From assembly GCA_013373375.1 (NCBI GenBank), contig JABXHY010000035.1:1-64000 (forward strand): a stretch of 64,000 nucleotides of DNA, written 5' to 3'. The stretch is from Gammaproteobacteria bacterium. Lineage in GTDB: Bacteria > Pseudomonadota > Gammaproteobacteria > Enterobacterales > Kangiellaceae. The notes beneath the pieces are model-generated. The model saw only the letters and a list, made by a program, of their open reading frames with translations. It searched no databases and was not told where the DNA came from. Of this stretch, positions 9,887 through 14,641 are shown piece by piece (position 1 is the first letter of the stretch; each line of letters begins with the position of its first letter). A program made the translations under genes and the position numbers.

Positions 9887-12046
9887 CTAGCGATGCTTTG
9901 GTCTTTTTCTTGGTAAATTAACGCCAATAATCACACCCGATATCTCAGAGTCTGAGCGCCAGTTTCTTGCGAAATAAGTAGCGCCATGATGTTCTGCGAT
10001 TAAGCGAACAATATATAAACCTAATCCTAAATGCGATTGCGAATCTGATCGAAAACTCTCTTCGCGCTCTGACGTCATCAAAGCAAATAATTCTTGCTCA
10101 GATATCTCTGGCAAAGGAGGCCCAATGTTAGCAACAGCAACCGACACATGCGAATCATTAAACTCTGTAATCACTTCGATTTCTGAGCCTGTTTCTGCAA
10201 AATCCACAGCGTTAGATATTAGTTTATCCAACAGTTGTGCTAACAACTCTTCTGAACTGCGAACTTTTGGGTAACGGTTTTCTTCAAACTGTTGCTCGTC
10301 GTATTTCGATGCATTAGAAATTTGAATTCCGTTTACTTTAATGCTCATTATATTTTCCGCATGCATTGCTTGACTTGCTGCATAATAGTTTCGAATAAAG
10401 GCGATTAAATCAATTTCTTGTAATTCGACATTTAAAATACTCTGCTCAACACGAGCTGCCTCACGCATTCGAGAAATTAACTGGCTTAACCTGTCTACTC
10501 CTTGCTGCGCATGCTTCAACAAAGGCTCATCCGACAAATCATTTTGCAAGGAAAGGTTATCGAGAGATGTGCGAACAATTGCCAAAGGAGTACGAATTTC
10601 ATGGGTTAAACGAGACGCCAGTTTTTCAAGATACTCATTGTAATCACTTAATCGCCCGGTCATGCTCGAAAAGCTATTGCTCAACTGCCCAAGCTCATCT
10701 CTTTTTCCATCAGGCTTTATAAGCTTTTTAACTCGACCGTAGTCGTCTACAGCTTCTAATGCCTGTCCATTGAGTCGGCTCACCCTTGAAGTAAACCTTA
10801 TTGCTAACACCATGAGAACAACAATCACGATTAGCATCACGAGCAACACTGTGTTGACATAAATATTCATTGCTTCTCTTTGTAATACTTGAACAGAGGC
10901 AACTGTTTGTTCTATCAATGTTGCGCCAACTATCGTGTTATCAAAAACAATTGGATGTACCGCCATAGCAATAGCCGTTTTATTATCCGTAAAAACCTCT
11001 AACATTGATGACGGCTCACCTGTTAGCGCTTTCTTTAGTAGAGGAGTGTCAAACTCAATAGCTTTAGCTCGCGCGTCAACTAACTCTTCTCCAGGTGGTG
11101 CGAGAAAGAAGTGAATTAACGGGTTTATTGGTTGAATATTCAGTTGAGTGTTTAGCGTTCCTGAGCGAGCTCTAACCTGCCCATACCGATCGACAACCCA
11201 AACTCTCTTGCCAGGCGGAATGTCCAGTTTATCAAGTTGTGACTGCACTAATTGGTCTGGCCACAATAAATCACTCAATTCAGACTCATAACTTTGAGCC
11301 GTTGAAATATTATTAACAGTAGAATCAAAATCTACGACTTTTAATCCAAGCTTACGCCAATTAAAACGTGCGGATAACTTGAGCTCTAATGTGTATCCTT
11401 TTGCCGTTTCTTGCCAGGATGATTGTGATAACCAAAAATTCTCAATTTGATTTTGTTCAGTGGTTGGACGCACTCTTCCAACTGCAACAGGTGCAAAACG
11501 CAATGATACTTGTTGACCTTGAGCATTCTTTAAAACAATTAAAACTTGATCACTATTATCTAACTGTTCAACTGACTCTCGATACCTTACTTCGTTGTCA
11601 ACAACCTCAACCAATAGGTAGAAATCTTTTCCGTTGCTCGCAGTCTGAACTGAAAAGCTGTCTTTTGATTTCACAAAAGAAAAATACTTCTCAAAGCCAC
11701 GTTGTGCCACCCAATCATCTGCATAACCATCAATCGTAATTTCTTGATGAGCAATTGGCACATAAATTTTGTTTGTCCCTACAGCAGGAGTTTGGTTTTC
11801 AATAAAGGAAGTGTTCTTAAGATCGCCACTGGCAATTATATAACTGACCATGTTTGCGTAGTTCGCCAAAGATTCTCGTAAATTATCAACGAGAACTGAC
11901 TCCATTTGGCGTAAAAAACTCAGGCTAACAACTGGAATAGCGAAGAGTACTACTGTGAAAACAATTAACTTTCGCTTAATCGTCCAAAAACCTAACGCAC
12001 TCAACTTTTCCAACGATACCCCATCCCATAAACTGTATCGATACAA
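9887..12046 (-). CDS. pdsS: Sensor histidine kinase of the proteobacterial dedicated sortase system
   Basis: The protein of up to 719 residues has a first membrane helix (about 27-45), a very long periplasmic region, a second helix (about 396-417), HAMP, HisKA with His482 (LTHEIRTPLAIV), and an ATPase domain with KLISNAVDF and GLGLYIVRLI. The long sensory part, the partner regulator and the adjacent pdsO match the Pds (dedicated sortase) kinase family. The annotated ATG overlaps the regulator gene by 46 bp; TTG codons nearer the pdsR stop are alternative starts. Its signal is unknown. I rate kinase certain, Pds family likely. Confidence 0.85.
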   Translation of the reverse strand: MYRYSLWDGVSLEKLSALGFWTIKRKLIVFTVVLFAIPVVSLSFLRQMESVLVDNLRESLANYANMVSYIIASGDLKNTSFIENQTPAVGTNKIYVPIAHQEITIDGYADDWVAQRGFEKYFSFVKSKDSFSVQTASNGKDFYLLVEVVDNEVRYRESVEQLDNSDQVLIVLKNAQGQQVSLRFAPVAVGRVRPTTEQNQIENFWLSQSSWQETAKGYTLELKLSARFNWRKLGLKVVDFDSTVNNISTAQSYESELSDLLWPDQLVQSQLDKLDIPPGKRVWVVDRYGQVRARSGTLNTQLNIQPINPLIHFFLAPPGEELVDARAKAIEFDTPLLKKALTGEPSSMLEVFTDNKTAIAMAVHPIVFDNTIVGATLIEQTVASVQVLQREAMNIYVNTVLLVMLIVIVVLMVLAIRFTSRVSRLNGQALEAVDDYGRVKKLIKPDGKRDELGQLSNSFSSMTGRLSDYNEYLEKLASRLTHEIRTPLAIVRTSLDNLSLQNDLSDEPLLKHAQQGVDRLSQLISRMREAARVEQSILNVELQEIDLIAFIRNYYAASQAMHAENIMSIKVNGIQISNASKYDEQQFEENRYPKVRSSEELLAQLLDKLISNAVDFAETGSEIEVITEFNDSHVSVAVANIGPPLPEISEQELFALMTSEREESFRSDSQSHLGLGLYIVRLIAEHHGATYFARNWRSDSEISGVIIGVNLPRKRPKHR

Positions 12047-12693
12047 TCAAAGCTATCGTCTAACTCAACAAATTTTTTCCTGATACGTTTAACGTGAGAC
12101 GTAATGGTAGAATCGTCAACGATTACATTGGCAATACTCATTAATTGCTCGCGAGTTTTTACATGACCAGGCGACTTAGCCAATGCATGAACTATCCAAA
12201 ACTCGGTTAACGTCAAATCAACGATCAAGTCGTTCCAGGAAACTTTTATTCTATCGAGATCGAGATAAAGAGAACCAACGGTTAAACTCTCAACTAGTTC
12301 ATCGGCTTTTCCCATCGCTTCTACTCGTCGGAATAAAGCTCCAACTCGAGCCATAAAGTGCGGCAAACTAATATCTTTTGTAACATAGTCGTCGGCACCA
12401 AGTCGCAAACCTGAAATCACATCAAAATCCGAATCCAGAGCCGTCAAAAACATTATCGGCAAACCTTTTGAACTTGCTCTTAGTTGTTGACACAGCTTAA
12501 AGCCTCCCTCGGGTTCACTTGGTAATCCAACATCAAGAATGGCTAAATCAGGCAACGCCTGTTTAAAGCCTTCTTCAGCGTCGCGATACGTACCATATGC
12601 GGTTACTTTATAACCATATTTAGAGAGTGCCTGAACATAGTTTTCTCGAATGGTTGCTTCATCCTCGACCAAAACAATATGTTTTTCCATCAT
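12001..12693 (-). CDS. pdsR: Response regulator of the proteobacterial dedicated sortase system (OmpR type)
   Basis: The 230-residue protein has a receiver domain with acidic pocket VEDE, phosphorylatable Asp in AILDVGLP (about residue 54), Thr in FLTALDS and Lys in VTKDIS, then an OmpR-type winged helix ending in GMGYRWKS. It precedes pdsS and overlaps it, so the two are translationally coupled. A Shine-Dalgarno-like AGGA precedes the tandem ATG ATG start. Its divergent neighbour pdsO is the obvious target. Regulator identity is certain and Pds family membership follows from the partner genes. Confidence 0.88.
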   Translation of the reverse strand: MMEKHIVLVEDEATIRENYVQALSKYGYKVTAYGTYRDAEEGFKQALPDLAILDVGLPSEPEGGFKLCQQLRASSKGLPIMFLTALDSDFDVISGLRLGADDYVTKDISLPHFMARVGALFRRVEAMGKADELVESLTVGSLYLDLDRIKVSWNDLIVDLTLTEFWIVHALAKSPGHVKTREQLMSIANVIVDDSTITSHVKRIRKKFVELDDSFDCIDTVYGMGYRWKS

Positions 12694-12861
12694 GTTGATC
12701 CTGTTTAATTATCTTATGACTAAAACTATTGAAAACATTTTAAAGCAATTCAACACAAAAACAGCTGTTTCACCACCATTGCCATAATGTTGCCACATTC
12801 TTTATCCGCTTCGCCATTTTTCGACTCTTATATCGCCTCATTAGTTCGGTTTAATAGCACT

Positions 12862-12948
12862 GTGTCCAACGAAAGGACACTTCCCGTAGCAATAGTCGCT
12901 ACCTTAACACGGTAGCATTTTTGGCCAAGGACGGCACTTTTGAAAAGT
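12862..12948 (+). promoter_or_regulatory. Structured pdsO leader with alternative hairpins
   Basis: The 315-bp space between pdsR and pdsO contains a run of palindromes. GTGTCC/GGACAC (12862-12880) has a 7-nt loop. GTAGC/GCTAC (12886-12902) and GCTACC/GGTAGC (12898-12916) share the same GCTAC strand, so they cannot form together, and the second is followed by ATTTTT like a weak terminator. TTGGCCAA and ACTTTTGAAAAGT follow. This arrangement resembles an attenuator or riboswitch expression platform. No known riboswitch consensus is recognised, and the promoter is not clear. The rest of the gap shows nothing else. Confidence 0.5.
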
Positions 12949-13008
12949 TTTGTTGTGAGTTACGGGGAGTTGAGTTGATTTTAAATTTAAACAAAGAGGA
13001 AAAATACC

Positions 13009-13698
13009 ATGAAAAAACTTGCCATCATTTCTGCACTGGTCATTACCGCGGTTTCTCACACAGCTCCTGCAAATGCAGAGTCACACAAAGAACAACAGAC
13101 TGGCGCTGTTAGTGGCGCCTTCATTGGCGCAGCCGCAGGTGGTCCAATCGGCTTCATTTTGGGCGCCGCATTCGGAGGTTTAATTGGCGATAACGTTGCA
13201 AGTAAAAAGGAGAATGAGCAATTAACCGCAAAAGTTGAAGAAGCAGAGGTTTACCAGTCACAACTTCAACTGGAAGTTGAAAATTTACAATCACAAGTAT
13301 CAACTACTAGCGACACTTCTTTTAACGACAGCGAGTTATTGCAAATGGATGTACTTTTTCACACAGCAGCGGCAGATTTAGACGATCTTGATCGTGAACG
13401 AGTCACTCAACTGGCAAGTTTCTTGAAAAAATACCCTGATTTATCAATCAAACTAGATGGCTTTGCCGACCCTCGAGGAAACGCAGATAAAAATAAGGCG
13501 CTGTCTATGGAGCGCATTAATTCAGTGAAAACCATGTTGACGGAAAATGGGGTTAATCCTGAACGAATCATTGCGACCGCGCACGGTGAGACTGCCAATG
13601 CCGCGCCAGAAGGCGACCTTGATGCTTATGCTTTAGAACGACGTGTGAGTATTCGATTTCTACCTAAAGAAGTATCAACCGAATTAGCAGAAAAATAG
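13009..13698 (+). CDS. pdsO: Sortase-associated OmpA-like protein
   Basis: The 229-residue protein has a signal peptide ending in ANAES, a glycine-rich segment (about 33-66: GAFIGAAAGGPIGFILGAAF) like glycine-zipper membrane segments, a short coiled coil (about 68-100), and a C-terminal OmpA peptidoglycan-binding domain with LDGFADPRGNADKNKALSMERINSV. This architecture next to PdsR/PdsS is the PdsO family, which accompanies a class of gammaproteobacterial sortases and their target protein. The start has a clear AGAGG ribosome-binding site. Neither sortase nor target gene lies in this window. An intrinsic terminator follows. Confidence 0.85.
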   Translation: MKKLAIISALVITAVSHTAPANAESHKEQQTGAVSGAFIGAAAGGPIGFILGAAFGGLIGDNVASKKENEQLTAKVEEAEVYQSQLQLEVENLQSQVSTTSDTSFNDSELLQMDVLFHTAAADLDDLDRERVTQLASFLKKYPDLSIKLDGFADPRGNADKNKALSMERINSVKTMLTENGVNPERIIATAHGETANAAPEGDLDAYALERRVSIRFLPKEVSTELAEK

Positions 13699-13924: not shown

Positions 13925-14641
13925 GTGGCTGAATTAGACTCGAATATACTCGATGAAGACTTACTGTTCGCGCTGACGATATCGTCAGAAGCGAAAGCAC
14001 TGCGTCTACAAAAAATGGCTGTTTTTAATAAAGTCATCACAAAATCCATTTGGCTTACTGACCATTCGACATCGATTGCAAAACTTGCATTCTGGTGCGA
14101 TCAATTAAATCAACAACATTTCAAAGCACTGAGCATTCCAGACTCAGAAATGGCTACCATAAAGCCATGGTTAATCAATAACTTTACGCCTTTACTCAAC
14201 AAGTTGGCAAAAACGATGATTAATATCAATCACCCACTAGCCGACCTCTCACAAATACTGACAGAAGCAATATATTTATTGGTGAGCACCAAGCAATTCA
14301 ACTGCGATATAAAAGATGTTCATAACGATACAGGAGCAATATATTTATTGAAATTTAGTTTTTATTTTCAATCGAGTTGGTTATCAAAGCTTATTATTCA
14401 CACGCTCTCATTAACTGACTTTAACTTTCCCTTTTCCAAGCCGAGAGAAAAAGCCGCCCCCTGCTTCTTATTGTATCGCCAGCTTTTGCAACTCTGGTTA
14501 AAAACAAATCTTCCGGCTTTACGTTGCTTAAGAGATCACAAACTCTCAAAACAAATTTTTGTTATCGAACCAGCCTCTTGGCGCAAACTGTTTTTAGTGT
14601 GTTATTACTATATAAAAAAGAAATTGAGATTTAATCCATAA
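13925..14641 (+). CDS. Hypothetical protein, possible divergent squalene/phytoene-synthase-like fold
   Basis: I do not firmly recognise this 238-residue, helix-rich protein. It starts with GTG because an in-frame TAA lies just upstream, and no strong ribosome-binding site is visible. The opening (EAKALRLQKMAVFNKVITKS followed by KLAFWCDQL) resembles the start of non-catalytic squalene/phytoene-synthase relatives, which have a basic ALR...F pattern and a KLxWW.EEL helix. The DxxxD metal motifs of true synthases are not evident. It lies between pdsO and yciK on the plus strand. Reality as a gene is likely from its codon-rich open frame; function is unknown. Confidence 0.6.
   Translation: MAELDSNILDEDLLFALTISSEAKALRLQKMAVFNKVITKSIWLTDHSTSIAKLAFWCDQLNQQHFKALSIPDSEMATIKPWLINNFTPLLNKLAKTMININHPLADLSQILTEAIYLLVSTKQFNCDIKDVHNDTGAIYLLKFSFYFQSSWLSKLIIHTLSLTDFNFPFSKPREKAAPCFLLYRQLLQLWLKTNLPALRCLRDHKLSKQIFVIEPASWRKLFLVCYYYIKKKLRFNP

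Follow-up and report, generated by a model that had tools for sequence, protein, structure and literature searches.

The window analysed here, a 64,000-nt stretch of DNA, covers nearly an entire contig (65,090 nt) of a draft genome (G000; 95.8% complete, 96 contigs). Two genes on its minus strand, pdsS (9887..12046) and pdsR (12001..12693), encode a sensor histidine kinase and an OmpR/PhoB-type response regulator respectively, and pdsO (13009..13698, plus strand) is transcribed divergently from them. PdsS consists of a first transmembrane segment, a periplasmic region with CBM9-like and Cache-type domains, a second transmembrane segment, and HisKA and HATPase domains. Its called start in the list of open reading frames is a TTG codon that creates a 46 nt overlap with pdsR, and the real start may be slightly further downstream. 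PdsO has a signal peptide without a lipobox cysteine, a glycine zipper, and an OmpA-like peptidoglycan-binding domain.

An earlier note on this DNA had identified the three genes as a PdsR/PdsS/PdsO module, and we confirm both the assignment and the gene positions, the three Pds models being the best NCBIfam matches of these open reading frames. PdsR exceeds the cut-off of TIGR03787 (363.2 bits against 335.7); PdsS matches TIGR03785 below its cut-off (438.1 bits against 612.2) although model positions 1–703 of 703 are covered, and PdsO is likewise below the cut-off of TIGR03789 (127.0 bits against 152.2). The doubt raised in the note, that such scores might place PdsS and PdsO outside the Pds families, is borne out as far as the cut-offs go, but a sortase-bearing sister species scores similarly low (477.1 bits for PdsS and 131.3 bits for PdsO), and the low scores therefore do not point to a different family. 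The TIGR03785 cut-off is passed by PdsS in none of the 40 genomes of the same family, whether a sortase is present or absent.

The periplasmic region of PdsS (347 aa) was modelled from a 50-row alignment with a pLDDT of 92.2. CBM9 modules head the Foldseek matches of this model (E 2e-7, TM by target 0.63–0.66), ahead of weaker ones to Cache/WalK-type sensor domains, and the predicted fold suggests that what PdsS senses is probably a glycan of the envelope or the state of the envelope. In PdsO the glycine zipper is kept, as are D154 and R169 of the OmpA domain. The general properties of these domains suggest that PdsO ties envelope layers together. It shares the glycine zipper and the OmpA peptidoglycan-binding domain with YiaD-type envelope proteins, but differs from them in having no lipobox cysteine in any of the sequences checked and in its higher score to TIGR03789.

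The pdsR–pdsO intergenic region contains a direct repeat, TGCCATA-N4-TGCCACA, with 11-bp spacing (12780..12797, plus strand), which faces pdsO and is the distal repeat of a candidate PdsR box. It is the only box match in the window, where 0.05 are expected at one mismatch or fewer; a gapped exact pattern, a stricter string than the matrix described below, has no match in the window. A putative -10 element, TTTAAT (12850..12855, plus strand), stands at a position, counted from the box, that is shared by the pdsO promoters of several families. The conserved promoter can thus be described as the direct repeat TTGCCATATTGTTGCCACAAT, of 11 bp, and a TTTAAT at constant spacing from it, with additional half-sites at steps of about 21–22 bp after the first repeat. 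The matrix built from 26 pdsO promoters has the consensus CAATTGCCATATTGTTGCCACAATTGAT, and every pdsO promoter that was read far enough has TTTAAT, or a sequence with one mismatch to it, at the identical column.

The same repeat faces pdsO in the canonical pds loci (L195–L204), with the same spacing between box and -10 as in G000. When the matrix was trained on other families only, the box and -10 were found upstream of pdsO in 14/14 loci of the own family and upstream of 12/20 own-family and 2/7 other-family unlinked sortase targets, compared with 0/833 for other genes in the same loci, although the -10 requirement was chosen after viewing these promoters and that part of the four counts is not independent of the discovery. 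In three of the eight own-family unlinked targets that fail, an early called start truncates a box-like site. Another two of these eight, the targets of the species G177 and G178 (L137 and L138) of the same genus, have a variant box, TGCCATAATTCGTCAT, with a 10-bp half-site spacing and a -10 that is about 22 bp closer. In a scan of 29 genomes, all zero-mismatch boxes are at the pds locus with a single exception (G005, C1:1372432). Strict box patterns with two mismatches occur in the own genus about as often as a reversed-pattern control, and such sites were counted as part of the regulon only if conserved in sister species. The simplest reading of these sequence patterns is that the repeat is a PdsR box, to which PdsR would bind, and that the sortase is a trans-regulated, dispensable client.

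We scanned the full promoter model over 0.84 Mb, or about 18% of G000, and a high-scoring box and a -10 occur together at only two sites, one before pdsO (score 33.1) and one before a gene for a 63-aa basic protein (score 26.0), although the contig carrying the latter (C24) was picked since the gene was already known, and the scan is a test of specificity rather than an unbiased discovery. The 63-aa gene (L236, L288) is on the minus strand with its start codon at 17321 of C24, and the box is 109 nt upstream of the start. It follows the same SDR gene throughout the genus and in G162, its Shine-Dalgarno sequence is predicted to lie within a hairpin, and its product has no Pfam match. The box is present before this gene in five of six genomes (G000, G176 and G178, and in a weak form in G177 and G162) and absent in G179. 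These promoter matches suggest that in G000 PdsO and one small gene are still under the control of the two-component switch, which would therefore probably have a function other than that tied to the sortase. A relative of the 63-aa gene is located at C64:17400 and has no box.

Counted from the putative -10, the pdsO mRNA has a leader of 153 nt (12856..13008, plus strand) that is predicted to be structured. Leaders of pdsO are 112–280 nt long in the own family versus 22–98 nt in other families. The first hairpin, GTGTCC-AACGAAA-GGACAC (12862..12880, plus strand), has compensatory changes within the genus, and another, GCC[AAGGAC]GGC (12924..12935, plus strand), presents an A-N-GGA loop resembling a CsrA site; hairpins with such a loop are found in 13/14 own-family leaders versus 2.2 expected from mononucleotide shuffles. 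The folding energy of the full leader is modestly low (z -1.76), and a search of Rfam finds no known RNA in it, with weak matches below the gathering scores. We regard RNA-level control of pdsO through the leader structure or the CsrA-like hairpin as a lead, not a result.

In canonical families pdsO, the target and the sortase form a single row adjoining the divergent pdsSR genes, and the small gaps between them suggest a shared operon. G000 resembles this proteobacterial dedicated sortase system (TIGR03784, TIGR03785, TIGR03787, TIGR03788 and TIGR03789, for the class GN sortase, PdsS, PdsR, the target and PdsO respectively) in its orthologous PdsR, full-length PdsS and PdsO, its divergent pdsSR/pdsO layout, and its promoter geometry. 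It differs in that PdsS and PdsO are under the curated cut-offs, in having a long structured pdsO leader and a second box-bearing gene, and in having neither a sortase nor a target. Profile searches find no class GN sortase (TIGR03784) in the G000 assembly, no PF04203 sortase over the cut-off (best 12.9 bits against 26.6), and no VIT-domain target (TIGR03788, best 56.2 bits against 551.65); a quick look at candidate loci with readable ORF ends revealed no sorting-type C-terminus.

These searches bear out the observation in the earlier note that no sortase or target is present over the 50 kb downstream. The further thought that the two might be close by beyond the window finds no support, as the right edge of the window is nearly the contig end and the assembly is without a sortase; on the left the window and the contig end together, 9.9 kb away from pdsS. 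Of the two explanations offered in the note, that of a sortase pair encoded elsewhere fails for G000, where the profile searches are empty, but applies to many relatives, in which an unlinked target–sortase pair is preceded by a similar-looking promoter box.

The note had also implied that a module without a sortase is a rarity, and this is not so. Among 149 genomes of the order, PdsS is present in 54, a sortase in 31, and both in 28; the corresponding numbers among 369 genomes of the class are 76, 55 and 42. The association is strong, yet PdsS is without a sortase in about half of the cases (26/54 in the order, 34/76 in the class). Within the own family PdsS is nearly universal and syntenic (37/40 genomes) whereas the sortase is patchy (26/40), and in every own-family genome with mapped loci the sortase and target are unlinked to pdsRSO. 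Two of the five species of the genus, G177 and G178, have a sortase, and G000, G176 and G179 do not; the PdsS tree groups these three, whose genes are intact, in a single supported clade (96*) within the genus. Sortase presence switches at least 13 times along the PdsS tree. In the sortase tree, f1 sortases outside a genus that we provisionally call Kangiella-like (g2), and outside G163, cluster as one clade (99/97), which fits a history of inheritance plus repeated loss. The flanks of the target–sortase pair in G177 and G178 are not common to both, so that no empty site can be defined in G000. A class GN sortase without PdsS is seen in 13 genomes of the class, such as G194, G310 and G532.

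We consider it likely that G000 contains a retained PdsR/PdsS/PdsO orthologue that responds to envelope glycan, and that its sortase–target client was lost in the clade of three sampled species. The module would have been inherited in place within the family. PdsS would sense envelope glycan or envelope state through its periplasmic CBM9-like and Cache-type region, and phosphorylated PdsR would bind the tandem TTGCCATA repeats upstream of the TTTAAT -10 and activate pdsO and, in G000, also the 63-aa gene on another contig. Exported PdsO would then link the outer envelope to peptidoglycan by means of the glycine zipper and the OmpA domain. A promoter of this kind stands ahead of the target and sortase in relatives, either in a row behind pdsO or in trans elsewhere. 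The second explanation in the earlier note, recruitment of the module to another envelope function, is the closer of its two options, although the data favour loss of a client with control of pdsO kept over a new recruitment.

Other accounts of the locus explain parts of these observations. A draft assembly in 96 contigs could have a gap that contains the sortase and target, making this an ordinary split Pds system of the kind that is usual in the own family; this is improbable, as the same search recovers the sortases of G177 and G178, and the two other members of the sortase-less clade are nearly or fully complete (G179, 99%; G176, 100% in 3 contigs). The module could instead be a relic, with the regulator and pdsO decaying after sortase loss, which would agree with the PdsS and PdsO scores below the family cut-offs and with the G000 PdsS end branch, the longest in the genus (0.72 versus 0.43–0.50). 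However, the genes are intact and full-length in each of the three species without a sortase, and pdsO is preceded there by a box and -10, even though PdsS identity is only about 48%; the peptidoglycan-binding residues of PdsO are kept, and the sortase-bearing sister scores about the same. We therefore consider ongoing decay unlikely, if slightly less so than an assembly gap.

Somewhat more plausible, but still doubtful, is that a different regulator binds the repeat, with PdsR acting elsewhere and the box marking a non-PdsR regulon of pdsO and target genes. The link between PdsR and the box comes from sequence, and in some genomes PdsRS persist without pdsO, a sortase, or a box beside pdsR. 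Against this, the box is located between pdsR and pdsO, canonical genomes carry it almost exclusively at the pds locus, and its layout, an 11-bp direct repeat, is that of OmpR/PhoB-type regulators, as in the cre/blr tag (TTCAC-N6-TTCAC) of the nearest family, CreBC/BlrAB, which is linked to cell-wall signalling (PMC3660660). That family shares with the G000 module the direct-repeat operator logic and provides its nearest HMM relatives after Pds, CreB and CreC being second-best matches as YiaD is for PdsO. We find it very improbable, however, that the locus is a CreBC/BlrAB-type system adjoining an unrelated YiaD-like OmpA protein. The matches are far below the NCBIfam cut-offs (CreB 164.1 of 273, CreC 123.7 of 356) whereas PdsR passes that of its Pds model; the operator sequence and the targets are different, the sensor is CBM9-like, and the box is common to canonical Pds loci. 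There is no cre/blr tag at two mismatches or fewer in the intergenic region (12694–13008), and tag-like matches in the window are no more frequent than chance (68 versus 78 expected).

Beyond the favoured reading of a retained module with a lost client, it is possible, though we put it forward tentatively, that PdsRS is a glycan-sensing envelope-response system that is not dedicated to the sortase. Its lasting outputs in the genus would be PdsO and the small protein, the target–sortase pair would come and go as a movable client by virtue of a PdsR box that it carries, and the pdsO leader would provide a second, RNA-level control. To our knowledge, no role is well established for the sortases of Gram-negative bacteria, and we found no paper on regulation of the proteobacterial dedicated sortase system in the literature searched. 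By linking pdsO, unlinked target–sortase operons and a small new protein to a single putative regulator, the promoter signature gives a concrete candidate regulon, and in sortase-less strains PdsS, PdsR and PdsO can be studied apart from the sortase.

Gene order around the module is conserved across the genera of the own family as gyrA-mtaD-ubiG-gph-(tyrB)-pdsSR-(pdsO)-yciK, with local insertions. The Kangiella-like genus has pdsSR at the same place without pdsO, and some of its genomes (G122, G136) are also without a sortase, so that some other output must exist there. Between pdsO and yciK in G000 is a fast-evolving gene (13925–14641) with no Pfam or NCBIfam match; three of its positional counterparts likewise have no Pfam match, and in G162 as well as across the genus a gene occupies this place, including where pdsO has been lost. 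In two other families (L111–L117 and L125) a gene of cluster c10, encoding a membrane-type protein of 219 aa in L111, is located directly 3' of pdsS, and it is a possible alternative partner of orphan PdsRS.
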